The notes beneath the pieces were generated by a model, which was given only the letters and a program-made list of their open reading frames with translations, made no database searches and was not told the origin of the DNA. Both the position numbers and the translations under genes were made by a program. This document shows positions 30,996 through 57,227 of a stretch of DNA of 57,227 bases, in pieces. Where the stretch lies: assembly GCA_028687545.1 (NCBI GenBank), contig JAQTZZ010000027.1:1-57227 (forward strand). The letters are read 5' to 3'. This DNA is from Candidatus Wallbacteria bacterium. GTDB taxonomy: Bacteria > Muiribacteriota > JAQTZZ01. The stretch's first letter is position 1; every line of letters starts with the position of its first letter.

Positions 30996-32453
30996 TTAAC
31001 TGTTTCTTACTGCAGCTTCTGTTCTCCCAAAGATTGAAGTTGGACAGTATACTTTCCGATTCAACAATTGAATACCCTCAGGAAAAATTGACCTGACAAG
31101 TGATATCACTATCTTCGTTTTTCCGCTCTCTCTGATTTTTTTCCATAGTGAGCAAATATTCTTCAACGAGTCTTCAACAAACTTAATGTAGGTGCTGCAA
31201 TTGACTCTCATGATGCATTCCTGTTCCTGGATCTTCGTCTGGAGTTCTTTAATCTTAGCTTCATAATGTTGGCTCCGCTCTTTATATACCTGGTCAGTAT
31301 AGACACCTTCTTCATGCTTAGTAATAACTTTCCTTCTCAACTCGTCGGCCTTGCTCAGCTCTTTGTCCAATCGCTCTAATTCTTTTGCCTCTTCAGCCAT
31401 CCTGGATTTCTCCCGTCTTTCTACCAGTTGCATTAACAGTGTTTTGTCAGCAGGGTTGAAAGTTAGTTGACTGAGTATCTGAGTCAATTGCTTGAACATG
31501 TTCATTTTTTCGATCCGCTCATTACAATTTTTATTTTTGCAGTCACAGTAAATAATGTTTTTTACAGTGTAACTTCTGAGCTTATGCCCGCACTTTCCAC
31601 ATATTAAGAACCCATTGAGATAGAGTCTCTTTTTTTTTGATTCACGAGTCTTCTTATTCCTTACAAACCTGGTTTGAACACTATTAAATAATTCTTCTGA
31701 TATCAGCGGAGTGTGCAGGCCTTTCACTCCTTGCGGTTTATTCCACTTACATACAATTCTTCCGGCATAAATTGGATGTTTCAGGATTTTCCTTACCCTT
31801 CGCTCACTGATTTTTTCCCCAGTTCGTTGTAGCTCAACTGCGATCATACCGATGGTCATGCCATTCAAAAAATCGGAGAAAATTTTCGAAACAATCACTG
31901 CTTTGGAATTTTGAATAAGGATAGGTTTCCCAAGGGCATCTCTCATATTGTCAAATCCAAATGGAGCCTTCCAACAAAAATATCCTTGCTTTACTGCCAT
32001 CATCATCCCAGAAGTTGTTCTCTCATTTTTCACTTCAAGCTCAAGTTGCGAAAGACCTTGTATTACAGTTCTACAAAAATTACCCATAGGCGACTCATCT
32101 AAAGGTTGAGAAACGGCTAATATTTTTATATGCAATGCAGTCAGGAGCTCAATAACATGGGTGTGATCTGCCATGGATCTCGCCAACCTATCATATGCCC
32201 AAATTATTACTGCATTGATTTTATTCCTCTTATCAGTAACAAATTTTAGGAGGGTTTCCAACTCTGCTCCAATTACTGTAGCACTCTCTCCTTCACCCCG
32301 AAACACTCGAACGACTTTATACCCATTAAGATTGGCATATCCTAAACATTTTGCCTCTTGATCCTCTAAGCTAAAACCATACTCTGCTTGGTTTTTTGTT
32401 GAAACTCGAACCAAAATCACCGCTCTTTTTGTGTCAATGGTAGTCCCATTCAT
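30996..32453 (-). CDS. Large serine recombinase
   Basis: 485 residues. N-terminal resolvase domain: RAVILVRVSTKNQAEYGFSL with catalytic S18, IIWAYDRLARSMADHTHVIE (about 84-103). The recombinase domain follows (about 170-265, with KILKHPIYAGRIVCKW), then a zinc ribbon (CGKCGHK...CDCKNKNC, about 290-318) and a coiled coil (about 345-420), the layout of integrases of mobile elements. These enzymes cut and join att sites without homology. Its ATG overlaps the small-protein stop by four bases. Last gene of a five-gene minus-strand run; codon use is AT-rich compared with the 1-30 kb region, a sign of transfer. Confidence 0.92.
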   Translation of the reverse strand: MNGTTIDTKRAVILVRVSTKNQAEYGFSLEDQEAKCLGYANLNGYKVVRVFRGEGESATVIGAELETLLKFVTDKRNKINAVIIWAYDRLARSMADHTHVIELLTALHIKILAVSQPLDESPMGNFCRTVIQGLSQLELEVKNERTTSGMMMAVKQGYFCWKAPFGFDNMRDALGKPILIQNSKAVIVSKIFSDFLNGMTIGMIAVELQRTGEKISERRVRKILKHPIYAGRIVCKWNKPQGVKGLHTPLISEELFNSVQTRFVRNKKTRESKKKRLYLNGFLICGKCGHKLRSYTVKNIIYCDCKNKNCNERIEKMNMFKQLTQILSQLTFNPADKTLLMQLVERREKSRMAEEAKELERLDKELSKADELRRKVITKHEEGVYTDQVYKERSQHYEAKIKELQTKIQEQECIMRVNCSTYIKFVEDSLKNICSLWKKIRESGKTKIVISLVRSIFPEGIQLLNRKVYCPTSIFGRTEAAVRNS

Positions 32454-32659
32454 ATAGGCCTCCTTGATATACTATTTTTGAAGATCTGCCATAAAACCTC
32501 TTCGAAAACCATTAATTGCTCAATTCGTTCAGGCTCATAGCCTTGATCAACTAGCAATTTGTATTCTTTGCTATCTTTACCGAACACATCCGAATCTGTT
32601 TTGACAGTACTCAAGCCCACTGCATTAATCAAGTCCTCAGTTTTTTTTGATTTTTCCAT
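32450..32659 (-). CDS. Small protein B, paralogue upstream of recombinase
   Basis: 69 residues from ATG 32657-32659 (GGAG seven bases before). C-terminal part YKLLVDQGYEPERIEQLMVFEEVLWQ resembles the small protein at 33651-33824 (FKMLVDQGYKPDRIEQLKNFEEVV). The two small proteins each precede a serine recombinase, so they are probably a partner, perhaps a regulator or directionality factor. No known family recognised. Stop and recombinase start overlap (TGA within ATGA). Confidence 0.72.
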   Translation of the reverse strand: MEKSKKTEDLINAVGLSTVKTDSDVFGKDSKEYKLLVDQGYEPERIEQLMVFEEVLWQIFKNSISRRPI

Positions 32660-32660
32660 T

Positions 32661-32753
32661 TTATTCTCCATCAGAATTATTAAATAATTCAGAAAATTTT
32701 TCCCATTCAGCAGCACGGATACGGGGATGATCACCACTAAAACGGTTTCTCAT
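32661..32753 (-). CDS. Tiny coupled ORF (30 aa)
   Basis: ATG at 32751-32753 overlaps the stop of the upstream recombinase (AGATGA). The protein MRNRFSGDHPRIRAAEWEKF plus SELFNNSDGE ends in TAA at 32661-32663, two bases before the small-protein ATG. Such tight packing and a protein-like composition argue for translation; it may only carry ribosomes to the next gene. No family recognised. Confidence 0.5.
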   Translation of the reverse strand: MRNRFSGDHPRIRAAEWEKFSELFNNSDGE

Positions 32754-33586
32754 CTTTTGTCAGTTATCTGTTTTAGTTTATTGCCTCTCTTTAACAGGAA
32801 TTTTTGAACCTCCTGATACTTTTCTCTGCTCACAATAGCTTTATGAATACCTTCCACTGGATTTTCAGTAAGCTTTGTTTTAATTAACCCAGTATAGATT
32901 GGATTGCTCAGAATATCCCGCAAACGTTCAACAGTTAGCTTTTTGAAGCCTTTATTTTGAAGGAGATATGTGATTTCAGCCAAAGTGAATGATCCAGATG
33001 CAGCTAAAAAAAATGCATGGGTTATAAATTTACTGTTTTGATCAGGTGATAATATGCATCTCTTATGCTTATTTGATCTGATGAACTTGTATCCTAGTGG
33101 TGGATGCCAACACCAAAACCCTTCTGATACTGTCCGTCGCATGCCAGCTGTTGATCTTTCCCTATTCATTTCTTGTTCTAATTGCATCTGCGCTAGTGAA
33201 AGTGACATATAGAATTGGCTCATAGCCGATGTCTCCATATGCTCTGAGACAGAAAGAATCTTAACATTCAATTTTGTACACAACTGCACGGTCATTGAAT
33301 AGTCAACCATGCGTCTCATCAACCTATCAGTTTTCCAGACAATCAAGGCGTTGATGCTATTCCTCTTGTCAGCTATAAACTTCAACAACTCTTTAAGTGT
33401 GGTACCGTTGGTTTTAGCGCTTTCACCGTCCCCTTTGAATACACTAACAACTTCGTATCCATTTTTCATCGCGTATTTATAACATTTCTTGACCTGATGA
33501 AGCAGACTGGCGCTTCCGACAATTTTATTTGTCGAACAGCGGGCGAAAATTACAGCTCTGTTATTGGATTTCTCAACATTAGACAT
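32750..33586 (-). CDS. Short serine recombinase
   Basis: 278 residues from ATG 33584-33586 (GGGAGG six bases before; an in-frame upstream start is less likely). Resolvase domain with NRAVIFARCSTNK and catalytic S18, IVWKTDRLMRRM (about 85), NRERSTAGMRRTVSEG. The recombinase domain is present (ERLRDILSNPIYTGLIKTKL, about 226-245), but the zinc ribbon and coiled coil found in the larger neighbour are absent. It may be a truncated enzyme or a partner that works with the larger one, as CcrA/CcrB-type pairs do. The conserved YDRL is changed to KTDRL. Confidence 0.85.
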   Translation of the reverse strand: MSNVEKSNNRAVIFARCSTNKIVGSASLLHQVKKCYKYAMKNGYEVVSVFKGDGESAKTNGTTLKELLKFIADKRNSINALIVWKTDRLMRRMVDYSMTVQLCTKLNVKILSVSEHMETSAMSQFYMSLSLAQMQLEQEMNRERSTAGMRRTVSEGFWCWHPPLGYKFIRSNKHKRCILSPDQNSKFITHAFFLAASGSFTLAEITYLLQNKGFKKLTVERLRDILSNPIYTGLIKTKLTENPVEGIHKAIVSREKYQEVQKFLLKRGNKLKQITDKR

Positions 33587-33650
33587 AGTTCCTCCCATCA
33601 ATTAAATTTTTTGAATCTTGATCATTCAGATGCTTCCTTTTAAAGATCTC

Positions 33651-43213: not shown

Positions 43214-46200
43214 TTGTGTAATATATCGAAAGCTTTAGTCATTCTTATTCTGGCGATATTGATTACTTCAGCATTTGCGGGAGTGACTGTTTCAGGTTCG
43301 ACCTCTGGTCTTTCAGGAGTCAGGGTTACGCTATGGCGATCGAGTGTGATCATACAGGAAGTCAATTCCAATGCCAGCGGAACATACAGCTTCACTAATG
43401 TTGACCCAGGAGATTACACGGTTACAGTCTACAAAGGAGGCTATTGGCCAGGGTCCACCCAGGCTACAGTAAGCAATAGAAATCTCAGCGGCCTGGACTT
43501 CACGATTATGTCCCTGCCTTCATTTAAGTTGTCCACTCTCCATATGGATGTATATGGTAAAGCGGAAATCGACCACGACGGTGATGGTACTCTGGAAGCC
43601 GTGATTCCAGGGGACGTAATTAGTGCCAAAAGTGCTCGGAATGTGTTATGTGGTCTCTATGTTGTGGAAGTGTTTAATAAATATGGCGTGCTTTCAATTC
43701 TGGGCGATGATCCCGGAACATCTGAGGAGGTAGAAGGATGCAGCGAAGGGGAAAATATTTCCTTGTTCATCAATGGAATCCATGCCTCAGGAAGCATCAA
43801 TTTCACTAATCTCGGTACTGCAGAATTGAACATCACAGCAGCTGCAGGTGTGACTAGAACAATTCCGCTCAAATCAGGATGGAACTTAATAAGTCTTGGG
43901 CTGACACCTTTTTCTGATTCAATTGAAGCAATTTTTGCTGGAATCAATAACCTAAAATATGTAATGGGCTTTTTCCGCAACCCAGAAGACGAAGGACAGG
44001 AGGGATTCCGAACTTTCATGAACCTTCCCTCAATGAAATCGTTCAGCAATCTTACAACCATGGACCCTTATCATGGATACTGGGTGTACATGACAGGCGA
44101 TGATATTTTACAGTTGAGCGGCTCTAGAATCAGGAGCGATTATTCCAGAAACATAAATCAGGGTTGGAATCTGGTGGGTTACTGGCTTGATTCTTCCAAT
44201 GCTCTTCCCACATACCAGAGCCAGACAGGTACTACCATTGATTCGATTTTCGGAAGTACCGCAGTTAGCGGAGAAGTGAAATATATAATGGGCTTTTACC
44301 GTTTCCCTCATGATGGAGAAATGGAAGGATTTCATACATTCATGAACACGGATGTTATTGATTTCAGCACACTGAAAGAGCTGTACCCCAACCTAGGGTT
44401 CTGGATGTACATGCAGAACCAGGGTTTGCTTAGGTATACATCCACAATAGTGGATATATATGCTCCAAACAACGTTAGCGCCAGTGACGGCATCTATTCA
44501 GACAGGGTGAGGGTCACCTGGAATGCTGTCAGCGGAACTTATGGGTATCAAGTTTTTCGTTCAGGCTCTGCAGTCGGCACATATTCAGCAATTTCCAGTA
44601 ACTGGCCGTCAACGACTTTTGACGATTTTGCTGTACTTGGAGGTATTCAATATTACTATAAGATCAAAGCATTCGATGATTCTGGAGAATCGAGCCTGCT
44701 CAGCGAATGTGATGCAGGTTATGCTGCCTTGTCAGGCTCTAACAACCTCCCTGTGATCGAGAGTATAGAAGTATCAGGAATTTCTGGTGAAATCAGTGTG
44801 AATTACATGCTGTTTGATCCTGACGGGGATACCTGCAGTGTGATGCTCTTCTATTCGCTCGACGACGGTTTCACTTACACAGCCTCAGTACAAATCAATG
44901 GAGCGACAAGTAACTGCTTGCCAGGCACCAGGACTCTTACATGGAATTCTGACAACGATTTTGCTGATCTCCAGACCAGAGTGAGGGTGAAACTTCTGCC
45001 GAATGACGGCACCACTGACGGTAGGGCTGGAGAATCAGGGATGTTTACAGTGGATAATAGGCCTTTGGAAGAGCCTGTACCATTGGGGGTCATTACATTA
45101 GCTTTGACCGGCGAGACAGTTATGGATTTTGTATGGATAGCTGCAGGAAGTTTCACAATGGGCAGCCCAGACTCAGTGGAAAACTGGAGCAGTGATGAGG
45201 GACCACAACACGCTGTGGATATTACCCAGGGATTTTATCTTGGCAAGTACGAAGTGACTCAGCGTCAGTGGCAGGAAGTGACGGGTAATAATCCAAGTTA
45301 CTTTTCAGGTTATCCAAACCGGGCTGTTGAAGAGGTTACCTGGAATGATTGTCAGGCTTTCATTACAGCGCTGAACAGCAAAAACATCGGTACTTTCAGA
45401 TTACCAACAGAAGCTGAGTGGGAATACGCTTGCAGAGCAGGAAGCACTACTCCATATTACTGGGGACCCTCCATGGACGGAAGTTATTGCTGGTATTGGG
45501 ACAACAGTAATTCACAAACCCATGATGTAGGCCTAATGTTGCCTAACGCCTGGGGTTTATTTGACATGAGTGGAAATGTCTGGGAGTGGTGCAATGATTG
45601 GTATGATGCAGCTTACTATAATATCTCTCCTGCCATTGATCCGCCCGGGCCATCAACAGGCTCACGCCATGTGATACGAGGTGGCAGCTGGGGTGGCGGT
45701 GGTATCCGCATCTGCAGATCGACATTTCGTTACAGCGATTATCCCACTGGACGCGCCGGTGACATGGGCTTAAGGCTGGTCGTCAGCCAAGATGCTGCAC
45801 AACACCAATCTACTTCAGAAACAATAACTCTCACCAGCATCAGCTTGACCCCATCGTCCATTTCTGTGAACACCAATTGTTCATACAACCTTAACAATGT
45901 GATTGTAACAGCGCATTATTCAAATTCCTCGACAGCAGAAATCACGGGTGAAACCTGGAGCAAAACCAGTGGAGTAGGCAGTGCGAGTGGGAGCACTTAT
46001 TATGCGGGCAGCACGCCAGGCAGTGCAGTGCTGACGGCAAGTTACACTGAAAGTGGATTGAATAAGACCATAGATCTTTCTGTCTTGGTTGTAAGTCAAT
46101 ATCAACTTACTTCCATTTCCATCACACCAACCATGATCTATATGAATCCCGGCAGTAATTATGACTTGACCACTATCATGGTAATCGCCGAATACTCAAA

Positions 46201-49200
46201 TGGAAGCAGCAGAGAAGTTACAGAAGAAGTCTGGTATACAACAAAAGTGCCAGGAGGTACTGTCGAAAATAATGTGTATACCGCTCTAGATTATATTGGA
46301 AGCATTGTCGCATTAAGAGCGAGTTACATCGAAGGAGATGTGACCAAGACTGCAGATTTAACTGTTACTGTGGTCAAGGCTCTTTCCAGTATCAGCATAA
46401 ATCCAGCTTCTATTACTGTATACGCAAACGGTACATATGACTTGAGTAATGTGACTGTTACAGCCCATTATTCAGACAGTAGCACAGCTAGTTTAAGTGG
46501 ATCTACCTGGAGCAAAACCAGTGGAGTGGGTAGCGTAAGTAGCAACACATACTACGCTGGTTCTAATACGGGTACCGCAGTGCTGACATGCAGCTACACT
46601 GAAGAGGGAATTACCAAGATTGCAGACCTCTCGCTGTCAGTTGTCAAAACCATTTCCAGCATCAGCATAAATCCTTCGTCTGTCACTGTATACACAAACT
46701 GCTCATACGACTTAAGCAATTTATCCGTGACAGCGCATTATTCTGACTCCACGACAGCCAGTGTCACAAGTGTAACCTGGAGCAGAACTAGCGGATTTGG
46801 TAATTTGAGTGGTAACATGTACAGCGCTGGTTCCAATACAGGCAGTGCAGTATTGACTTGCACTTATACCGAAGGTGGAGTTACCAAGACTGCAGATTTT
46901 TCAATAGTAGTGGTGGTTTGTCCTCTGACCTCCATTACTCTCAAGCCATCCTCGATCAATGTTACCACGGGTAGTGCTTATAATCTGTCTGGCATCCAAG
47001 TGTTTGCGACTTATGCAAATGGTAGCAGCAGAGAAATCACAGATGAAACATGGTGTATAAGCTCAGGCAATGGATCAATTTCGGGTAGTATTTATACTGC
47101 TCCCATTGATACCGGGAATGTTATTTTGGCAGCCAATTATACTGAAAATGGAGTGATTAAAACCGCATCTCTTAATGTAGCTGTCTGGATTACCCCCAAT
47201 CCAGGCGCGTGTATTACAGTACCTCTAACGGGGGAAGTGACAATGAAATTCATCTGGATTCCATCTGGAAGTTTTGCCATGGGTAGCCCTGAAGAAGAAC
47301 CATACAGAAATATCAACGAAGGGCCGCAGCATACTGTGAACATCTCGCAAGGCTTCTGGTTGGGGAAGTACGAAGTTACTCAAGCTCAATGGCAAGCAAT
47401 TACCGGCAGAAATCCCAGTGGGTTTCAGGGGGCAAACTACCCAAATTCAAGTAATCGGCCAGTAGAATATGTATCCTGGAACGTATGCCAATCATTCATT
47501 GCAACGCTGAACAACAAAGGCTATGGAACCTTTAGGTTGCCTACTGAAGCGGAATGGGAATACGCCTGCAGAGCAGGGACATCGACAGCACATTACTGGG
47601 GAAGCAGTGTTGATGGGAATTACATGTGGTATCCCGCTAACAGTGGTTCACAAACCCATGATGTTGGTTTGAAGTTTCCCAACGCATGGGGTCTATGCGA
47701 TATGAACGGTAATGTCTGGGAGTGGTGTCAAGATCTAAGCGCAAATATTTGGGAATTGGGTCAAAACGGATCTGGTGATTATTCAAACTCCACGGTGACA
47801 GATCCACAAGGCCCAACAACTGGCCCATCACGTGTTCATCGGGGCGGCAGTTGGTACCCTAGCGACCCTTATTGCCGATCAGCACTTCGACACGCCATGC
47901 CTCCTGATCATTCCTACTCAGATCTTGGCTTGCGAATCCTTGCAGTAACGCTGAACCAGATGCCTGAGTTCGTCCCTCTTACCAGCATCAGCATAAGTCC
48001 GGCCTTTGCAACTGTGAGCACCAATGGCACGTATAATTTATCCAATGTCTCAGTTACAGCATACTATTCGGACAACAGTACAAACGCAGTAAATAACCTA
48101 ACTTGGATCAGAACTAGTGGTGTGGGAAGTGTAAGTAGTAGCACATACAACGCGGGAACAAGCGTTGGCACTGCTGTGTTAACTTGCAGCTTTACTGAAG
48201 GTGGAGTCACAAAGACTGCAGATTTCACAGTGACAGTGATAAAAACTCTTTCCAGCATCAGTTTGGCTCCTTCATCCATTTCCGTGAACACCAATGGTTC
48301 ATACAACCTTAACAATGTGATTTTAACAGCGCATTATTCAGATTCCACGACAGCAGAAATCACGGGTGAAACCTGGAGCAAAACCAGTGGAGTAGGCAGT
48401 ATGAGTGGGAGCACTTACAATGCCGGAACAAGCTTAGGCAGCGCTGTGTTGACATGCAGCTATACAGAAAATGGGATTACCAAGACTGCGGATTTCTCAG
48501 TGACTGTAGTTAAGACTCTTTCAAGCATCAGTATTAGCCCTTCTTCTGTCAATTTATACACAAGCAGTTCGTATGATTTGAGCAATGTGGTCGTGACGGC
48601 ACATTATTCGGACTCCACAACAGCCAATGTCAACAATGCAACCTGGAGCAGAACCAGTGGAGTGGGTAGCATAAATGGGAGAACCTATAGCGCTGGTTCC
48701 AATACAGGTAGCTCAGTGCTGACATGCAGCTACACTGAAGGTGGAATTACCAAGACTGCTGATTTCTCAGTAACAGTGGTGGTTTGTCCTCTTACTTCTA
48801 TTACTCTCAAGCCATCCTCAATCTGTGTGACAACAGGCAGCACTTATAATCTGTCTGGCATCCAATTGCTTGCGACATACGCGAACGGGAACAGCAAAGA
48901 AGTCAATGGTGAAACATGGAGTGTAAAAGGGTATGTATATACAACCTCTGTACCTGGCACAATCGAAGGTAGTCTTTATACTTCTCCACCTGATAATGGT
49001 AGTGTAGTATTAACAGCAAGTTACACTGAAAATGAAGTAACTAAAACTGTCGATCTCGTGATTTCAGTTGTAACTATGACTTCCATTGCTCTTACACCTA
49101 CCACGATTTATCTGAACATAGGCAGTTCTTTTAATTTAGCTGACATCAAAGTATTTGCAAATTTCTCGGATGGAAGTAGCAAAGAGGTTACGAGTGAAAT

Positions 49201-52200
49201 TTGGAGTAGAAGTTCAGGCAACGGCTCAATATCAGGAAACAATTTCATAGCAAATACTGACCCAGGAAGTGTTGTGTTGACTGCAAGGTACTCAGAAGGT
49301 GGAGTGACTAAAACTACTGATTTCCACGTATCAGTAGGGACGATGATTTTTATTACACTCAAACCAACTTTAATCTATTTGGACACTGGACATTTCTATG
49401 ATTTGTCTAACATCAAGGTGTTTGCGGATTATTCAGATGGAAGTAGCAGAGAAGTCACAGGTGAAATCTGGAGTAAAAGTTCAGGTGGCGGCTCAATCTC
49501 TGGCAGCATCTATACTGCTACAGTAGATACAGGCAGTGTTATTTTGAAAACCAATTATACAGAAAATGGAGTGACTAAAACTGCATATCTTAATGTTGCT
49601 GTGTGGGTCAGCCCCACTCCAGGTACAAGTAAAACTGTGACTTTGACTGGCGAAGTGACCATGAAATTCAACTGGATTCCTGCCGGAAGCTTCACAATGG
49701 GCAGTCCGGATTCAGAACCAAACAGAAGTATTAATGAAGGCCCTCAGCACACTGTTAATATCACACAAGGCTTCTGGTTGGGAAAATATGAAGTCACCCA
49801 AGGTCAGTGGCAGGCTATAATGGGAAATAACCCAAGTGGTTTTAAGGGTGACCAGAGACCAGTGGAGATTGGTTGGAATGACTGCCAGCCCTTTATTTCT
49901 AAACTTAATAATATGGATATCAGCACCTTCATCCTACCGACTGAAGCAGAATGGGAGTATGCTTGCAGAGCTGGGAGTACCACAGCTTATTATTGGGGGG
50001 ATAATGCTGATGGAAATTACATGTGGTACAACGGAAACAGCAATTCCCAGACCCATGATGTAGGTTTAAAGCTACCTAATTCTTGGGGTCTATTTGATAT
50101 GAGCGGAAATGTCTGGGAAAGATGCCAGGACAGATGCCCGTATAGTACGTTACATGGACAAAGATGGATAGACTATTCAAGTTCAACTGCTGTTGACCCA
50201 CAAGGACCAACTACAGGTGAATCTCGGATACATCGCGGAGGCAGCTGGTACCAAGGAATAAACTGTTCACGGTCAGCTAGCCGCGATTCCGAACCACCAG
50301 ACTGTGGCTACACGGATGTAGGCATACGTTTAGCATGTGTTCAGAACTCCTTGTCTAACATAACTCTCAGCCCATCTTCAATGGTTTTACCGACTGGTTC
50401 GGTATATGACTTGAACAATATCAAGATTACTGCAGTATACATGGGTAACTACACAGTAGAAGTCTGCGGTACATGGAAAGTGAAATCAGGGATAGGCACT
50501 GTATATGGGAACACTTATACCGCTGGTCCCAATGCAGGTTATGCGATACTGACTTGCAGTTACGCCGATAATGGAGTGACTCGAACTGCAGAAATGAATG
50601 TTACTCTATCTGGCCTTTCTCTCTGTATAACTTCATTAGTAGTAATGACCGGGTCAACTTATAACCTAAACAGTATAAAAGATATAGTGATTTATCCGGA
50701 CTGCAGCACAGAGGAAGTGACTGGGACATGGATCGTGAAATCCGGAGTAGGAACTGTGAATGGAACCACATACACCGCAGGTCTAGATGCAGGTTCAGCA
50801 GTTTTAATGTGCTCTTACATTGATGGTGAAGTTACTAAAACTGCTGAACTTGGTATATCTGTACGGGAATGTAAAACATTAACCCTGACCGGTGAAGTGA
50901 CAATGGATTTTGTCTGGATTCCTGCAGGTAACTTTACGATGGGTAGCCCAAATTCCGAACCGTACAGGAGTTATGAAGAAGGTCCGCAGCACACGGTAAA
51001 CATCACCCATGGGTTTTGGATGGGTAAGTATGAAGTTACTCAAGCGCAGTGGCAGGCAGTAATGGGTAGTAATCCTAGTGGTTTTTCCGGCAATCCCAAT
51101 CGCCCTGTTGAGAGAGTAACCTGGAGCAATTGCCAGTCATTTATTACGGCATTGAATGGAAAGGGGATTGGCACATTCAGACTTCCGACAGAAGCGGAAT
51201 GGGAATTCGCTTGTCGTGCAGGGAGCACAACATTATATTATTGGGGAGAAAGTGTTGATGGGAATTACATGTGGTATTATGACAATAGCAGCTCCCAGAC
51301 TCATGATGTAGGTTTAAAGCTCCCAAACCCTTGGGGTCTATTTGACATGAGCGGGAATGTATGGGAATGGTGCAGCGACTGGTTTGGATCATATTCAAGT
51401 TCTATTGCGGATGATCCGACGGGTCCAACTACCGGTTCAAGCTTAGTATTGCGTGGCGGCTCGTGGTACAACCATGACTATTTCGTTTACTGTCGCTCTG
51501 CGACTCGTAATAGTCTTAGTAACAGTTATTGTGACAGTAGCGACGGGGTGCGGCTAGTCGTCAACCCGATTACTCAAACCAAGACTCTTTCCAGCATCAA
51601 CATAGGCCCTTCTTCGGTCAATGTAGTTACGAGTGGCACTTACAACTTATCAGATGTCACAGTTACAGCCCATTATTCGGACTCCTCAACTGTTAGTGTT
51701 ACCAATGTAACCTGGAGCAAAACCAGCGGAGTTGGCAGTGTAAGTGACAGTACCTATAGCGCTAGTTCCAATACAGGCAGTGCTGTATTGACTTGCACCT
51801 ATACAGAAGGTGGCATTACCAAGACTGCTGATTTTGCAGTAACTGTAGTAAAAACCCTATCTACCATCAGTATTAATCCTTCTACCATCAACGTATATAC
51901 AAACGGTTCATATGATTTGAGCAATGTAGTCGTGACTACACATTATTCGGATTCCTCGACAACAGAAGTTACAGGGGAAACCTGGAGCAAAATCAGCGGA
52001 ATTGGCAGCATAAGCGAGAGCACTTACAACGCTGGCAGCATGGCAGGCAGCGCAGTACTGACTTGCAGCTACACTGAAAATGAAGTGACCAGAACTTCTG
52101 AATTGAGCATCACTGTATTCAAACAACTGTCCGGCATAACTATCAATTTATCTACAAGGTTGTTAGGACCTAATGCTGCATATGTCTTGAATTGCATCAA

Positions 52201-53137
52201 GGTTACTGCTGCATACTCTGACAGCAGCACAGCGGAAGTCACTGGAACGTGGAGCGTTAAATCCGGGGGAGGAACTGTGAATGGGAGCACTTATACTGCG
52301 AGTTCCAGTGCGGGCAGTGCAGTGTTGACTGCTAGTTACACAGAAAATGGAGTGACGAAGACAGTAGACCTGAGCGTAACTGTGAATGGCGAAACGCATC
52401 CGACAGGTGAAATCAAGACAATCACCCTGCCCACCGATGTAACCATGGATTTCATTTGGGTACCAGCGGGTAACTTCGCTATGGGCAGTCCAGAATCTGA
52501 ACCTGACCGCGTTTCAGATGAAGGACCGCAACACACTGTGAACATTACTCAGGGTTATTACCTCGGCAAATATGAAGTTACTCAAGCACAGTGGCAGGCA
52601 ATCACTGGAAGCAACCCAAGTTGGTTTCAAGAGTACAATGGATATCTGAATACAGGCAATCGACCAGTAGAGCAAGTTTCCTGGGATGATTGTCAGACTT
52701 TCATAACAACACTTAACAGTTTGTCATTAGGCACCTTCAGGTTACCATCAGAAGCTGAGTGGGAATACGCTTGCAGAGCAGGGAGCCTGAATTCTTATTA
52801 TTGGGGTGATACTGTAGATGTGAATTACCTATGGGATTCATCGAATTGTAATTCTCAGACTCATGATGTGGGTTTAAAGCTGCCCAATGCTTGGGGGTTG
52901 TATGATATGAGCGGAAATGTTTGTGAATGGTGCCAGGACTGGCATTCTTCGAGTTATTATTCAAGTTCTCCAACTGATGACCCGCAAGGGCCTTTGAGTG
53001 AGTACTACCGAATATTAAGAGGCGGATCATGGTACTATGGCTACTTTGGCTATTTATGCCGCTCTGCTTATCGTGACCGCGATTATTCTGATCACAAACC
53101 AATGGACAACGGATTGCGATTAATTCTTAGCCCATAG
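43214..53137 (+). CDS. Giant secreted protein with five FGE-sulfatase (SUMF1) domains and 16 Ig-like repeats
   Basis: 3307 residues; start TTG 43214, weak ribosome site, but a signal peptide follows at once (ALVILILAILITSAFA). Order: carboxypeptidase-regulatory-like domain, DHDGDGTLE loop, GWNL...GYWVYM pair (about 218-405), FN3-like (about 415-512), Ig-like (about 515-625), then FGE domains at about 626-858, 1331-1578, 2137-2376, 2553-2785 and 3067-3307, separated by 5, 6, 2 and 3 Ig-like repeats of about 90 residues. Each FGE domain has LGKYEVTQ, FRLPTEAEWEYACRAG, GNVWEW and RGGSW...CRS; the paired catalytic cysteines of true FGE are not present, so it is a ligand-binding fold. The last loop ends the gene. 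Codon use is AT-richer than the 1-30 kb core. Confidence 0.9.
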   Translation: MCNISKALVILILAILITSAFAGVTVSGSTSGLSGVRVTLWRSSVIIQEVNSNASGTYSFTNVDPGDYTVTVYKGGYWPGSTQATVSNRNLSGLDFTIMSLPSFKLSTLHMDVYGKAEIDHDGDGTLEAVIPGDVISAKSARNVLCGLYVVEVFNKYGVLSILGDDPGTSEEVEGCSEGENISLFINGIHASGSINFTNLGTAELNITAAAGVTRTIPLKSGWNLISLGLTPFSDSIEAIFAGINNLKYVMGFFRNPEDEGQEGFRTFMNLPSMKSFSNLTTMDPYHGYWVYMTGDDILQLSGSRIRSDYSRNINQGWNLVGYWLDSSNALPTYQSQTGTTIDSIFGSTAVSGEVKYIMGFYRFPHDGEMEGFHTFMNTDVIDFSTLKELYPNLGFWMYMQNQGLLRYTSTIVDIYAPNNVSASDGIYSDRVRVTWNAVSGTYGYQVFRSGSAVGTYSAISSNWPSTTFDDFAVLGGIQYYYKIKAFDDSGESSLLSECDAGYAALSGSNNLPVIESIEVSGISGEISVNYMLFDPDGDTCSVMLFYSLDDGFTYTASVQINGATSNCLPGTRTLTWNSDNDFADLQTRVRVKLLPNDGTTDGRAGESGMFTVDNRPLEEPVPLGVITLALTGETVMDFVWIAAGSFTMGSPDSVENWSSDEGPQHAVDITQGFYLGKYEVTQRQWQEVTGNNPSYFSGYPNRAVEEVTWNDCQAFITALNSKNIGTFRLPTEAEWEYACRAGSTTPYYWGPSMDGSYCWYWDNSNSQTHDVGLMLPNAWGLFDMSGNVWEWCNDWYDAAYYNISPAIDPPGPSTGSRHVIRGGSWGGGGIRICRSTFRYSDYPTGRAGDMGLRLVVSQDAAQHQSTSETITLTSISLTPSSISVNTNCSYNLNNVIVTAHYSNSSTAEITGETWSKTSGVGSASGSTYYAGSTPGSAVLTASYTESGLNKTIDLSVLVVSQYQLTSISITPTMIYMNPGSNYDLTTIMVIAEYSNGSSREVTEEVWYTTKVPGGTVENNVYTALDYIGSIVALRASYIEGDVTKTADLTVTVVKALSSISINPASITVYANGTYDLSNVTVTAHYSDSSTASLSGSTWSKTSGVGSVSSNTYYAGSNTGTAVLTCSYTEEGITKIADLSLSVVKTISSISINPSSVTVYTNCSYDLSNLSVTAHYSDSTTASVTSVTWSRTSGFGNLSGNMYSAGSNTGSAVLTCTYTEGGVTKTADFSIVVVVCPLTSITLKPSSINVTTGSAYNLSGIQVFATYANGSSREITDETWCISSGNGSISGSIYTAPIDTGNVILAANYTENGVIKTASLNVAVWITPNPGACITVPLTGEVTMKFIWIPSGSFAMGSPEEEPYRNINEGPQHTVNISQGFWLGKYEVTQAQWQAITGRNPSGFQGANYPNSSNRPVEYVSWNVCQSFIATLNNKGYGTFRLPTEAEWEYACRAGTSTAHYWGSSVDGNYMWYPANSGSQTHDVGLKFPNAWGLCDMNGNVWEWCQDLSANIWELGQNGSGDYSNSTVTDPQGPTTGPSRVHRGGSWYPSDPYCRSALRHAMPPDHSYSDLGLRILAVTLNQMPEFVPLTSISISPAFATVSTNGTYNLSNVSVTAYYSDNSTNAVNNLTWIRTSGVGSVSSSTYNAGTSVGTAVLTCSFTEGGVTKTADFTVTVIKTLSSISLAPSSISVNTNGSYNLNNVILTAHYSDSTTAEITGETWSKTSGVGSMSGSTYNAGTSLGSAVLTCSYTENGITKTADFSVTVVKTLSSISISPSSVNLYTSSSYDLSNVVVTAHYSDSTTANVNNATWSRTSGVGSINGRTYSAGSNTGSSVLTCSYTEGGITKTADFSVTVVVCPLTSITLKPSSICVTTGSTYNLSGIQLLATYANGNSKEVNGETWSVKGYVYTTSVPGTIEGSLYTSPPDNGSVVLTASYTENEVTKTVDLVISVVTMTSIALTPTTIYLNIGSSFNLADIKVFANFSDGSSKEVTSEIWSRSSGNGSISGNNFIANTDPGSVVLTARYSEGGVTKTTDFHVSVGTMIFITLKPTLIYLDTGHFYDLSNIKVFADYSDGSSREVTGEIWSKSSGGGSISGSIYTATVDTGSVILKTNYTENGVTKTAYLNVAVWVSPTPGTSKTVTLTGEVTMKFNWIPAGSFTMGSPDSEPNRSINEGPQHTVNITQGFWLGKYEVTQGQWQAIMGNNPSGFKGDQRPVEIGWNDCQPFISKLNNMDISTFILPTEAEWEYACRAGSTTAYYWGDNADGNYMWYNGNSNSQTHDVGLKLPNSWGLFDMSGNVWERCQDRCPYSTLHGQRWIDYSSSTAVDPQGPTTGESRIHRGGSWYQGINCSRSASRDSEPPDCGYTDVGIRLACVQNSLSNITLSPSSMVLPTGSVYDLNNIKITAVYMGNYTVEVCGTWKVKSGIGTVYGNTYTAGPNAGYAILTCSYADNGVTRTAEMNVTLSGLSLCITSLVVMTGSTYNLNSIKDIVIYPDCSTEEVTGTWIVKSGVGTVNGTTYTAGLDAGSAVLMCSYIDGEVTKTAELGISVRECKTLTLTGEVTMDFVWIPAGNFTMGSPNSEPYRSYEEGPQHTVNITHGFWMGKYEVTQAQWQAVMGSNPSGFSGNPNRPVERVTWSNCQSFITALNGKGIGTFRLPTEAEWEFACRAGSTTLYYWGESVDGNYMWYYDNSSSQTHDVGLKLPNPWGLFDMSGNVWEWCSDWFGSYSSSIADDPTGPTTGSSLVLRGGSWYNHDYFVYCRSATRNSLSNSYCDSSDGVRLVVNPITQTKTLSSINIGPSSVNVVTSGTYNLSDVTVTAHYSDSSTVSVTNVTWSKTSGVGSVSDSTYSASSNTGSAVLTCTYTEGGITKTADFAVTVVKTLSTISINPSTINVYTNGSYDLSNVVVTTHYSDSSTTEVTGETWSKISGIGSISESTYNAGSMAGSAVLTCSYTENEVTRTSELSITVFKQLSGITINLSTRLLGPNAAYVLNCIKVTAAYSDSSTAEVTGTWSVKSGGGTVNGSTYTASSSAGSAVLTASYTENGVTKTVDLSVTVNGETHPTGEIKTITLPTDVTMDFIWVPAGNFAMGSPESEPDRVSDEGPQHTVNITQGYYLGKYEVTQAQWQAITGSNPSWFQEYNGYLNTGNRPVEQVSWDDCQTFITTLNSLSLGTFRLPSEAEWEYACRAGSLNSYYWGDTVDVNYLWDSSNCNSQTHDVGLKLPNAWGLYDMSGNVCEWCQDWHSSSYYSSSPTDDPQGPLSEYYRILRGGSWYYGYFGYLCRSAYRDRDYSDHKPMDNGLRLILSP
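51452..51568 (+). other. Hypervariable C-terminal loop of FGE domain 4, NNY-codon run
   Basis: From RGGSW (51452-51466) the codons read tac aac cat gac tat ttc gtt tac tgt cgc tct, then gcg, then fourteen more codons ending in C or T (to 51544): 25 of 26 end in a pyrimidine. The residues there are Tyr, Asn, His, Asp, Ser and the like. Conserved flanks in the same gene have no such bias. Diversity-generating retroelements make this pattern by mutating adenines in AAY codons of a template. Confidence 0.6.
53018..53134 (+). other. Hypervariable C-terminal loop of FGE domain 5, at the gene's 3' end
   Basis: After RGGSW (53018-53032) seven pyrimidine-ending codons (tac tat ggc tac ttt ggc tat), tta, then thirteen more (tgc to cac, 53057-53095): 20 of 21. 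Position at the extreme C-terminus and the fold match the variable region of retroelement target proteins. No template repeat copy was found in the window. Confidence 0.6.
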
Positions 53138-53317: not shown

Positions 53318-53542
53318 CTATTTACTAGAAAATATTTTGTAAATACCCCAAGCAGCTACACCAATAACGGCTCCTGCGGCAGCTCCAATAGGTCCAGCTG
53401 CTGAACCTATTCCACTGGCTGAACCAACCATACCCGCTGCGGTCAAACCAGCCGCTTCAACTGTTGCCACGCCAACCGCTGCACCCGCAGCTCCAGCAGC
53501 ACCAACTTTTGCAGCCTTACTAAGATTGCTTTCTTTGCTCAT
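53318..53542 (-). CDS. Glycine-zipper small membrane peptide
   Basis: 74 residues from ATG 53540-53542 (GGAGG six bases upstream; an earlier in-frame ATG is not as well placed). Two Gly/Ala-rich helices with GxxxG-type spacing (AAKVGAAGAAGAAVGVATVE, GPIGAAAGAVIGVAAWGIYK) form a likely hairpin in the membrane; short lysine-bearing ends. No leader peptide or double-glycine site. Looks like a bacteriocin-like, holin-like or pore-forming peptide. It lies 43 bases beyond the helicase gene on the same strand, with its own ribosome site. Partner to the operon by inference. Confidence 0.65.
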   Translation of the reverse strand: MSKESNLSKAAKVGAAGAAGAAVGVATVEAAGLTAAGMVGSASGIGSAAGPIGAAAGAVIGVAAWGIYKIFSSK

Positions 53543-53585
53543 TTTTTCCTCCACATATTTTATGGAAATCTAAGTAACATGTAAT

Positions 53586-54998
53586 TTAACAAGATTTTCC
53601 TCGAATGGTGTCTGAAATTAAATTGTTAATGGATTTCTTTTTTTCGGAAATCCTAAATATTTTTTGATCGATTGTATCGGAATTATTAATACATTTTGCA
53701 AGATATCTTTTTACACAGATTTCTTTCCAGTTAGAATTTATTCGCCTTGCTCTCGATAGCATCTGAGATTCTATTGAAGGATTAAAGTGGGGATCAATGA
53801 TAAATATTTTATTTGCTTGAGGCAAATCTAATCCTTCTCCACCAACGTTTGAAAAGACAACGACTCTATTTTTACCAGATTTAAAGTCCTTTAATACATT
53901 AGCTCTTTTTTCTTTTGAAGTGTCACCAATAAACACTTCATGTTCAATGCTTTCTTTTGTTAAAAAGTATGAAATTGTATTTACTCCAGCATTTACAAAG
54001 TTCGAGTAAATTAAACACCGATTATCATCATCTAAAATTACTTTTTTAAGATCTGCGATCAATTGAGCTACTTTAGGTGATAAATAGTACTTGTTATCAG
54101 AATACAAAGGATTCAGTATTGTTTGCCTGCAGTATTGAAGTTTATTTATTGATCGAATCAGTTTTCGTTCGTTATCTTCTTCATCATCAAGATAGTTTAA
54201 ATGCTTTTTTAATCTAGATAGAGAGACATCGTATTTTTTTTGAGTAAATTGGTCTAGTGTAATTTCGCAATTTTCTTCAGTTAATTTAGGATAACTTGGC
54301 AATTTTTCTAAATCTACAAAATCATAATATCTACTTACTAGATCTCTAAATCTACCAGGTTTTTTTATACCTATGATTTGGCCATACAGAGGTTTCTTTT
54401 TAACAACAACATAATAAAATCTTTTAAGAAAATTCGAATCTCTATAATCCCATTTCCTCTGAAATTCTCTCTCAATCAAAGGGAAAAGATTTTTATTTGA
54501 AACTATCTCAACTAAATTAATAAATTCTTTCACGTTATTTTGAAATGGGGTTCCTGTTAAAGGAAGGAAGTATTCAAATCCGGTACGTATTTTTTTTAAC
54601 ATCTCTGAAGTTTTTGTATCTTCGTTTTTACTATGGTGAAATTCATCGATGATTAGAAAATTTGATGAACTAAAATCAAATTTGCTGAAATGTTTAACAA
54701 AATAACTAAAGGAAATTAAATTAAAGTCAGGGCCTAGCTCATGAGAACTGCTGCGATTAATAATTTTATAAGAGATTTGAGGGCAAAATAACTTAATGTT
54801 ATCAATAAAATTAGCTATCAAGGATGCTGTAGTTAGAACTAGAGCTCTATCTACTTTGTTGTCTCTTTTTAATCGCAAAAAACATTCAATCGCCGTTCTT
54901 GTCTTGCCAGTTCCCATTGGATGTGAGAGTATAATTGATTTTTCCTCAACAAAACGGTTTATAAAACTACTCTGAAAAGGATACAGCGGATAGTTCAC
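53586..54998 (-). CDS. SNF2-like DEAD/DEAH-box helicase, stand-alone
   Basis: 470 residues. GTG start (54996-54998) overlaps the upstream stop. Motif I SHPMGTGKTRTA (about 25-36), motif II IIDEFHH (about 116-122), LTGTPFQNN (motif III, about 148-156), NVGGEGLDLPQAN (motif V) and QMLSRARRINS (motif VI, about 410) are all present, so the ATPase should be active. No nuclease or other domain is fused, and the length is little more than the two RecA-like folds. Remodels or moves on DNA or nucleoprotein; cytoplasmic. Third gene of the minus-strand operon with two membrane proteins, an odd neighbour for a helicase. Confidence 0.88.
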   Translation of the reverse strand: MNYPLYPFQSSFINRFVEEKSIILSHPMGTGKTRTAIECFLRLKRDNKVDRALVLTTASLIANFIDNIKLFCPQISYKIINRSSSHELGPDFNLISFSYFVKHFSKFDFSSSNFLIIDEFHHSKNEDTKTSEMLKKIRTGFEYFLPLTGTPFQNNVKEFINLVEIVSNKNLFPLIEREFQRKWDYRDSNFLKRFYYVVVKKKPLYGQIIGIKKPGRFRDLVSRYYDFVDLEKLPSYPKLTEENCEITLDQFTQKKYDVSLSRLKKHLNYLDDEEDNERKLIRSINKLQYCRQTILNPLYSDNKYYLSPKVAQLIADLKKVILDDDNRCLIYSNFVNAGVNTISYFLTKESIEHEVFIGDTSKEKRANVLKDFKSGKNRVVVFSNVGGEGLDLPQANKIFIIDPHFNPSIESQMLSRARRINSNWKEICVKRYLAKCINNSDTIDQKIFRISEKKKSINNLISDTIRGKSC

Positions 54999-55741
54999 TT
55001 GCCAGCTATACCAATCACATGCTTTGCAATTATAAATTTCGTAAGAGTAGTGTAATCAGTGTTTAATACATACCAAAGGCCTGCAGTTATTGCTATTCCC
55101 CACCCAACAGGACCAGTTAGTACAGAGAGAAGATGGGCTGCTGAAGTGTAGATGACAAATGGAAAAGTAATTCCAATTACGACTCCTATTGCATGGATAG
55201 TTGTAGATAGTGCTAGAAATGGCTCAAAACCAAGTGAAGTGATATACAGAATTATGGCTGAAATTGATCCGCTTGTGAACAAACCTGCTAAATCTTTGGG
55301 GTCAATACCTTTACTTTTTATTTCTGCAGCGATATTTTTTAATACTTGCTGTTTTTGCTCGGCGGAGAGCCCTGACCACATTGCATCCAGATAACCATCA
55401 AAGATTTTTGCTTCTAACATACTTTCATCCCACTTTTCATCAACTTCTATCTTCATTCTTTTAGCGACTGATTTTAAAATTTCTGAATATGAGACGTCAT
55501 ATTCATATAAGTATCTGAATGGACCTGTAATTGCATTTCCGTAAGCCCATTTTAATTTGTTGATTATGGAACTGACAGTTGGATCACAATTTAGAATATT
55601 TTCATCAGCTAACTGTTTTAGTTCGTTCTCATTACATTTAAACAAAAATGACTTAAAACTTTCATTGGTAGCACCAAAAACATCATAAACAAAGCAAACA
55701 AGAAAAATTATCACAAGTATCTTTTTAGGTTTTTTTTTCAC
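54995..55741 (-). CDS. YaaW/UPF0174-like exported membrane protein, copy 1
   Basis: 248 residues from GTG 55739-55741 (GGAGG four bases before). N-terminal signal or anchor (KKILVIIFLVCFVYDVFGA). The middle, KCNENELKQLAD, YGNAITGPFRYL, VSYSEILKSVAKRMKI and DAMWSGLSAEQKQQVLKNI, follows the order of E. coli YaaW (UPF0174/PF03981-like), which has no signal sequence. The C-terminal half has two to three hydrophobic segments, with TGPVGWGIAITAGLWYVL. The family's function is unknown. It is 20 bases downstream of copy 2. Confidence 0.75.
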   Translation of the reverse strand: MKKKPKKILVIIFLVCFVYDVFGATNESFKSFLFKCNENELKQLADENILNCDPTVSSIINKLKWAYGNAITGPFRYLYEYDVSYSEILKSVAKRMKIEVDEKWDESMLEAKIFDGYLDAMWSGLSAEQKQQVLKNIAAEIKSKGIDPKDLAGLFTSGSISAIILYITSLGFEPFLALSTTIHAIGVVIGITFPFVIYTSAAHLLSVLTGPVGWGIAITAGLWYVLNTDYTTLTKFIIAKHVIGIAGK

Positions 55742-55761
55742 TCTTCCTCCTAAAAATACTG

Positions 55762-56496
55762 TTACGATTTGGATAATTCAATAACATGCTTTGCAATAGT
55801 AAATTTGGTTAATGTAGTATAGTTGGTGTTAAAAAAATACCATACTCCTGCGGCAATTGCCAACCCCCACCCCACTGGGCCTGTTAAGACAGAAAGAAGA
55901 TAGGTTGCAGAAGTATAGACAACAAATGGAAAAGTAACTCCAATCACTACTCCTATTGCGTGGATAAATGTGGTAAGAGCTATATACGGTGTAAATCCCA
56001 ATGATGTTACAGTGAATATTAACGCAGAAATGGATGTTGATGCTACTAAACCCTTAATTTTTGATGGATCAACCCCTTTGTCTTTTAGTTCTTTAGCTAT
56101 GTTATCTAGGACTTGTTGCTTTTGTTCTGCTGTGAGTCCTGACCACATTGCTTCAAGGTAATTTTCAAAAATTTTCCCTTCTATTGTTTTGTCATCCCAG
56201 TAATCATAAACTGTTATTTTCATTCTTCTGGCAACAGACCGTAGAATAGTTGAATATGGCACTTCTGAGTCAAATAATGATCTATATGGTCCTGTTATAG
56301 CATTTCCGTAGGCCCATGAAAGATTACTAATTATTGAAGTGGCGTCACCACCAACTATGTCGGTCAGTTGCTTCAATTCGCTTTCGTTGCATTTACCGAG
56401 AAGAGATTTAAGTGATTCATTTTCAGCATAGCTAATATTGCATAAAAACGAAAGGAGTAAAATTATAGCTGCCACCTTTTTCATAATGAGTTTCAT
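55762..56496 (-). CDS. YaaW/UPF0174-like exported membrane protein, copy 2
   Basis: 244 residues from ATG 56494-56496 (GGGAGG five bases upstream; an in-frame earlier start adds 27 residues with no support). Signal peptide (KLIMKKVAAIILLLSFLCNISYA). About half identical by eye to copy 1: KCNESELKQLTD, YGNAITGPYRSL, AMWSGLTAEQKQQVLDNIAK, and the same TGPVGWGLAIAAGVWYF end. First gene of the operon (copy 2 - copy 1 - helicase - glycine-zipper peptide). Product likely in the inner membrane with a soluble part outside. Confidence 0.75.
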   Translation of the reverse strand: MKLIMKKVAAIILLLSFLCNISYAENESLKSLLGKCNESELKQLTDIVGGDATSIISNLSWAYGNAITGPYRSLFDSEVPYSTILRSVARRMKITVYDYWDDKTIEGKIFENYLEAMWSGLTAEQKQQVLDNIAKELKDKGVDPSKIKGLVASTSISALIFTVTSLGFTPYIALTTFIHAIGVVIGVTFPFVVYTSATYLLSVLTGPVGWGLAIAAGVWYFFNTNYTTLTKFTIAKHVIELSKS

Positions 56497-57154
56497 GTAG
56501 CCTCCCGTTTGTAGATAGATAATGTTTGAACATCTAGCATGAATTTTAGTGCTTTTACCTATGATACAGAAAGACATAATTCAATTCAACAAATCTACAT
56601 ATGTGATCCCCGATGGACTCTTCAGATAACACAAAGACGCGTCATTACAGCTCCAACAGGGTGGATGTGGGAGATAAGACTTCAAGGATTGCTACAACCT
56701 CATTGGACGATTTGAGCCATGGGTGAATTTGGACATGTTGCAGTAAGAAAAGGCAATGTAAGTATTCCTCAAAGAACCATGAATGACGCTGAGTTTATAA
56801 CTCAATGTAAAGATACTGATAAACTGCTAAGGAGTATTGATTTCTGTATGAACCATTAAAATCAAGATGACTTGTTATTATTTTTTTATGGGTATTTGAT
56901 TTCTCAATCTTAACGTCCGTTAATATTCATTATGACGATAAGTGGTCTCTGTGCGGCTTTTAAGCTTGTCAATTATCAACTAATAATTTCATAAGCTGTA
57001 TTGTGTTGTCTTTCAACATAGTGTTTTTTCAAAAACCGTTATTTGCTTTTATGGTTTCCATGACTATACAAAACGAAAAGTTTACCTCTACTCACACATC
57101 ATTTAGCTACGTCCCGTCAAGTGGTGTAAATTTCCATCGGCTACTCCTGTCAAC
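56497..57154. other. 650-base gap, one doubtful small ORF
   Basis: AT-rich. A plus-strand frame from ATG 56719 to TAA at 56857-56859 (46 residues, GHVAVRKGNVSIPQRTMNDA ...) looks protein-like but has no ribosome site and begins just after a stop in the same frame, so it may be a remnant. No promoter could be named for the minus-strand operon. Confidence 0.4.
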
Positions 57155-57227
57155 CTAAGCAGCCCTCAATTCCTTGCAATACAAGCCCTTAATCAGTTCC
57201 ATTGACTCCAGGCTGAAGTATCTCCTG
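57155..57227 (-). CDS. 3' end of unidentified CDS, possibly a transposase (partial)
   Basis: The minus-strand frame enters at the window edge and ends RRYFSLESMELIKGLYCKEL then RAA, TAG at 57155-57157. Beyond the stop, GAAATTTACACCACTTGACG (minus strand) recalls the ends of IS256-family elements from memory. Identity cannot be settled from 23 codons. Confidence 0.4.
   Translation of the reverse strand, partial: RRYFSLESMELIKGLYCKELRAA

Follow-up and report, generated by a model that had tools for sequence, protein, structure and literature searches.

At the right end of the window, the full 57,227-nt stretch of the Candidatus Wallbacteria bacterium contig analyzed here, four genes lie on the minus strand and are transcribed in the order gene A, gene B, helicase and glycine-zipper peptide (Table 1). 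Re-reading the sequence reproduced exactly the coordinates and the packing reported in a first-pass annotation of this DNA, with a 20-nt gap between A and B, a 4-nt overlap between B and the helicase and a 43-nt gap between the helicase and the peptide. The same annotation had credited all four genes with good ribosome-binding sites, which holds for A, B and the peptide, each preceded by a strong site; no Shine–Dalgarno-like site was seen ahead of the helicase start, where the sequence reads AGCTGGCAA up to the GTG codon. Because this start lacks a ribosome site of its own and falls inside the GTGA overlap with the stop codon of gene B, translation of the helicase is probably coupled to that of gene B.

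Table 1 Features of the operon and of the adjoining contig end, in window coordinates
Feature	Position	Strand	Description
Gene A	56496-55762	(-)	244 aa; ATG start; ribosome site GGGAGG; PADLOC JukA, 4e-9; signal MKLIMKKVAAIILLLSFLCNISYA, cut before E; predicted exported or anchored JukA/YaaW-like protein
Gene B	55741-54995	(-)	248 aa; GTG start; ribosome site AGGAGG; PADLOC JukA, 3.1e-11; signal-like N-terminus; paralogue of A
Helicase	54998-53586	(-)	470 aa; GTG start; minimal SNF2-family helicase/translocase
Glycine-zipper peptide	53542-53318	(-)	74 aa; ATG start; ribosome site GGAGG; assigned from its sequence
127-nt repeat	57101-57227		Same sequence at four contig ends; a multicopy element begins here, next to the operon

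GC3 is uniformly low across the four genes (0.28, 0.26, 0.23 and 0.25 for A, B, the helicase and the peptide, in that order), compared to 0.39–0.68 in the other window genes sampled. This uniformity suggests that the four genes entered the genome together as one module. The start of gene A lies 731 nt from the contig end, and its final 127 nt are found unchanged at the ends of three further contigs of the same genome (C88, C69 and C32). Assemblies typically break at multicopy elements, and the shared ends indicate that such an element begins next to the operon. On the left, the operon adjoins a gene for a 3,307-aa secreted-type protein (window 43214-53137) with five FGE-sulfatase (SUMF1-like) domains, which alternate with repeats of immunoglobulin-like appearance. 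No known defence system was recognized among the nine left-hand neighbors, one of which, an ankyrin protein, matched a PADLOC candidate model. An AT-rich stretch with two minus-strand serine recombinase genes (window 30996-33601) is likely a second mobile segment of the contig.

Family assignment and topology of A and B

The two proteins are 64–65% identical paralogues, in agreement with the duplication noted at first pass. An NG86 comparison gave a dN of 0.28 and a dS of 1.59, the latter close to saturation, and the resulting ratio of about 0.18 indicates that both copies are retained under purifying selection. Both were matched by the JukA models of PADLOC (library-wide E-values in Table 1) and, weakly, by the NCBIfam model PRK10236, which represents E. 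coli YaaW. Pfam recognized neither protein, and the DUF3944 and Ubiq_cyt_C_chap models gave no match at E ≤ 1. In profile–profile alignments with hhalign, a profile of A, B and a relative from genome G021 matched a profile of ten YaaW/JukA proteins, E. coli YaaW included, at 98.9%. A nine-member subfamily profile aligned to the same YaaW/JukA profile at 99.6% over 217 columns, nearly full length, and spanned both the DUF3944 and the Ubiq_cyt_C_chap regions of YaaW. By these profile comparisons, A and B are members of the JukA/YaaW family. The PADLOC matches and the alignment to E. coli YaaW thus agree with the original YaaW-like label; the accompanying description of YaaW/UPF0174 as a family of unknown function is outdated, as the family is that of JukA. 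Profile searches of the PDB for the JukA family returned nothing credible, and an AlphaFold2 prediction of A with B reached a pLDDT of 47.7 and was unusable as a model.

The closest relatives found outside the phylum form a short JukA-like subfamily of about 220–245 aa, present in eight genomes of the G230 set and on the Sulfurospirillum plasmid pSDCE1. They share with A and B the signature G-[IV]-[TA]-[FL]-P-F ... G-P-x-G-W; unlike A and B, they have no signal sequence, mostly have no evident partner and are never found beside a helicase.

The N-termini of A (Table 1) and B (MKKKPKKILVIIFLVCFVYDVFG, cut before A, with the site placed by eye) are both signal-like, combining a positive n-region, a hydrophobic core and small residues ahead of the cut. 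The assessment was rule based rather than made with SignalP. It bears out the earlier statement that both copies carry a signal sequence missing from the E. coli protein: no signal-like N-terminus was detected in E. coli YaaW, in the Sulfurospirillum relative or in the short relatives tested. The only other intact member of the clade, the G021 relative from the same phylum (L044:1973-2950), has such an N-terminus as well. In a maximum-likelihood tree, A, B and the G021 protein formed one clade with support of 95/92, the G021 protein on a long branch. The charge pattern of the N-termini predicts that the A and B domains lie outside the cytoplasm, whether the signal segment is cleaved or retained as an anchor. 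Both proteins also have a hydrophobic C-terminal half; in a periplasmic location, they could reach a cytoplasmic helicase only if their C-terminal hydrophobic helices crossed the membrane.

A different arrangement was observed in genome G790 (L113:1096-2148), where a JukA-like domain follows two N-terminal membrane helices that, in our reading of the topology, would keep the domain on the cytoplasmic side. No helicase lies nearby, and the neighbors include an outer-membrane-type protein and a glycosyltransferase. Together with the signal-like N-termini of A, B and the G021 relative, this protein points to N-terminal membrane attachment in two forms within the family.

Signal-like N-termini and a hydrophobic C-terminal half could also be expected if A and B were secreted against other cells, with the peptide as their partner or immunity protein. 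We consider this very improbable, as A and B are homologous to an immune sensor that works inside the cell, secretion offers no evident task for an SNF2 motor and no known bacteriocin or toxin family was matched in Pfam, PADLOC or NCBIfam.

The helicase and the glycine-zipper peptide

Pfam assigned the helicase by Helicase_C (9.6e-20) and SNF2-rel_dom (7.2e-19). The six SNF2 motifs searched for are intact, and the protein comprises two RecA lobes with the ATPase and helicase motifs, a bare SNF2 core with nothing else attached. This core matched the Sulfolobus SNF2/Rad54 protein 1z63 at 7e-24 and, in PADLOC, ZorD at 6e-26; at the level of sequence, the likeness to the helicase parts of DpdE and ZorD is general SNF2 kinship only. 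Close kin of the helicase were not found in 382 genomes at E ≤ 1e-26. The relatives retrieved (E ≤ 1e-20 in 96 genomes and E ≤ 1e-26 in 382 genomes) were set aside as long SNF2 proteins of about 980 aa or more, with the exception of one 586-aa fragment at a contig edge. Plasmid matches were discarded as well, being only 24–26% identical; inspection of two of them showed a 1,054-aa helicase next to SbcCD in one case and a record lacking annotation in the other. No relative was found in the viral contigs scanned with the helicase.

Glycine and alanine are abundant in the peptide, whose composition is that of a glycine zipper. Its matches in Pfam, PADLOC, NCBIfam and PHROGs included no family beyond chance level, and neither the peptide nor the helicase matched JukB in PADLOC. 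Glycine-zipper proteins of about 190 aa that end in GxYKLFGG, similar to the end of the window peptide, were seen at two other loci (L086:9386-9955 and L098:1495-2076). Their genes adjoin a divergently transcribed NTPase-like regulator, and a related copy (L099) apparently starts with a signal peptide. A glycine-zipper protein adjoining a JukA-like gene in genome G450 was rejected as support for the window peptide, because members of the same gene family were also seen at a distance from the JukA-like gene in three other genomes, one of which has such a gene next to the same NTPase-like regulator.

Genomic company of JukA-like genes

Recurrence of YaaW-like genes next to the helicase in other genomes had been proposed at first pass as a check. 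Using phmmer, no SNF2 helicase was found in 26 stretches (322 kb), nearly all of them around other JukA-like genes, in a search that did detect distant SNF2 proteins in control sequences. Across 1,988 genome-searches (repeats counted) and the 26 stretches, such a helicase was not found beside a JukA-like gene a second time, leaving the combination a singleton with no counterpart near about 25 other JukA-like genes. JukA-like matches themselves occurred in 4 of 40 genomes of this phylum. Relatives of A and B were likewise not found in back-translated or DNA-pattern scans of genome contigs (two) and viral contigs (four); one pattern match (L055) was dismissed as a chance match within an unrelated phage gene. 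A fixed helicase–YaaW system is therefore not upheld, as the other genes of the YaaW-like subfamily lack the helicase in all further neighborhoods examined, an outcome that the first-pass annotation had itself named as refuting its proposal. The defence reading is not contradicted, since a sensor family that works with many effectors, as in Juk, is expected to include helicase-free relatives. With a single occurrence, the functional link between A/B and the helicase rests on one operon.

That the combination was found only once would also fit an imported AT-rich stretch having placed the JukA-like pair beside an unrelated helicase and peptide by chance. The 4-nt overlap, the helicase start without its own ribosome site, the short gaps, the common strand and the shared GC3 all argue against this, making it improbable.

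JukA-like genes elsewhere have varied company. In Klebsiella, the partner is JukB-like, as detected with the same PADLOC library. On the Klebsiella pneumoniae plasmid pY9645-105 (L051:4977-6589), a JukA-like gene is followed by a JukB-like gene; the plasmid also carries phage-type genes, and the same JukA-like gene is present on many Klebsiella plasmids. The Azotobacter gene is partnered by an uncharacterized 372-aa protein and the G021 gene by a 219-aa protein. A Citrobacter freundii plasmid (L054:3992-7784) encodes in tandem a WYL-domain protein, a 404-aa JukA-like protein and PDC-M40B, a PADLOC candidate (6e-62), which suggests that PDC-M40B can be a JukA partner. An apparent further combination lies on the Sulfurospirillum diekertiae plasmid pSDCE1 (L048:3119-7176), where genes for YcjX, a YcjF-like protein (TIGR01620), a JukA-like protein, a hypothetical protein and a macro-domain protein follow one another on the same strand. 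In genome G016 of the same phylum (L037:7903-10047), a single 714-aa protein is a fusion of a JukA-like and a DnaJ domain. The eight short relatives have no evident partner.

A divergent YaaW-like gene was matched in 305 of 391 genomes of the G230 set. At four loci of this set (L039, L040, L094 and L095), that gene is in several cases directly followed by one for a hydrophobic protein of 400–500 aa, which looks like a conserved housekeeping pair. Such breadth bears on the window operon, where A and B might be chaperones of membrane proteins in envelope housekeeping, with the helicase and peptide serving in stress or in something unrelated. The annotation of E. coli YaaW reads putative enzyme-specific chaperone, and Pfam matches the protein with Ubiq_cyt_C_chap at 7.7e-16. 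Within the phylum, however, JukA-like genes are restricted in occurrence, and the operon has the low uniform GC3 of an import and adjoins a multicopy element; we regard a housekeeping role as unlikely.

Proposed function and comparison with known systems

JukA is the sensor of Juk ('jumbo phage killer'; Cell 2025, doi 10.1016/j.cell.2025.02.016) and, as described in PMC13282480, recognizes proteins made early by the phage at the infection vesicle. There it is described as working with diverse effectors, one of which, the tetrameric pore JukB, acts on the early infection vesicle; some JukA proteins protect alone by a mode given as unknown (PMC13282480). Because the YaaW/JukA protein is sensor and recruiter in the one system studied, as that source describes it, the helicase or the peptide is a better effector candidate than A or B. 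By analogy, the A/B pair likely senses and recruits, with the helicase or the peptide as effector. The first-pass annotation had distributed these roles the other way, with the helicase sensing foreign DNA and the YaaW-like pair and the peptide damaging the membrane. Its assignment can draw on the hydrophobic C-terminal half of A and B, the glycine-zipper composition of the peptide, the presence of SNF2-type helicases in several defence systems and the JukA proteins described as protecting alone (PMC13282480), which indicate that JukA need not be only a sensor. We nevertheless judge it rather unlikely, as the family acts as sensor in the system studied, so far as described in that source, and the many different partners seen among relatives suit a sensor better than an effector. 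The broader proposal of a defence-type module that combines membrane proteins with a DNA-acting motor is supported, with defence argued from homology.

From sequence relationships, we infer phage defence by the operon, with the helicase as effector of the adjoining A/B sensor. The reading that we prefer, a horizontally imported, Juk-like anti-phage module in which A and B sense entry, the SNF2 motor blocks DNA and the peptide acts in the membrane, has a probability of about 0.5 when taken jointly with its mechanism. The A/B pair would sit in or on the outer face of the inner membrane and sense an early event of phage entry, either the site of DNA ejection or an ejected protein. Recruited by the pair to the point of entry, the cytoplasmic SNF2 motor would then engage the incoming DNA and block its entry or early expression. 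The peptide would insert in the membrane, somewhat like JukB, and either aid the local block or kill the cell. In its most specific form, an exported, duplicated JukA pair would signal across the membrane to the cytoplasmic SNF2 motor on incoming DNA, with the peptide as membrane partner; we advance this version only tentatively, as one of low probability. If it is true, phages would be halted ahead of genome entry or while it is under way, and the range of targets would extend beyond nucleus-forming phages. An exported JukA clade with a DNA-motor partner, as predicted here, is unexpected and was seen once; it would extend the JukA family to envelope sensing. The assignment also moves A and B from 'unknown membrane protein' to a concrete immune-sensor family.

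No described defence type with this gene set was encountered in the libraries and literature searched, Juk being covered through PMC13282480, in agreement with the first-pass annotation. E. coli YaaW (UPF0174; DUF3944 and Ubiq_cyt_C_chap) is homologous to A and B over the whole domain; it differs in having no signal sequence and no helicase neighbor and in being matched by Pfam models that miss A and B. Type I Zorya comprises the ZorAB membrane sensor and ZorCD, with a helicase and an Mrr-like nuclease, and its proposed logic is that the membrane sensor recruits a DNA-acting protein (PMC11890865). The operon resembles Zorya in the sensor-to-DNA-effector logic proposed for it and in the match of its helicase core to ZorD, but ZorA, ZorB and ZorC are all missing and its helicase carries no nuclease domain; at E ≤ 1, PADLOC gave no Zor match for A, B or the peptide. 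With Juk, the operon shares a nearly full-length JukA-family sensor domain, small size and another gene directly downstream. It departs from Juk in having two JukA-like copies, both with a signal-like N-terminus, and an SNF2 motor and a glycine-zipper peptide in the effector position where JukB would stand. Characterized JukA appears to have no export signal, judging from E. coli YaaW and from the site of action described for JukA. With JukB absent and its sensors predicted to be exported, the operon is Juk-like and, by defining parts, not Juk; it would bring a DNA translocase as a partner into a system known so far for attack at the infection vesicle.
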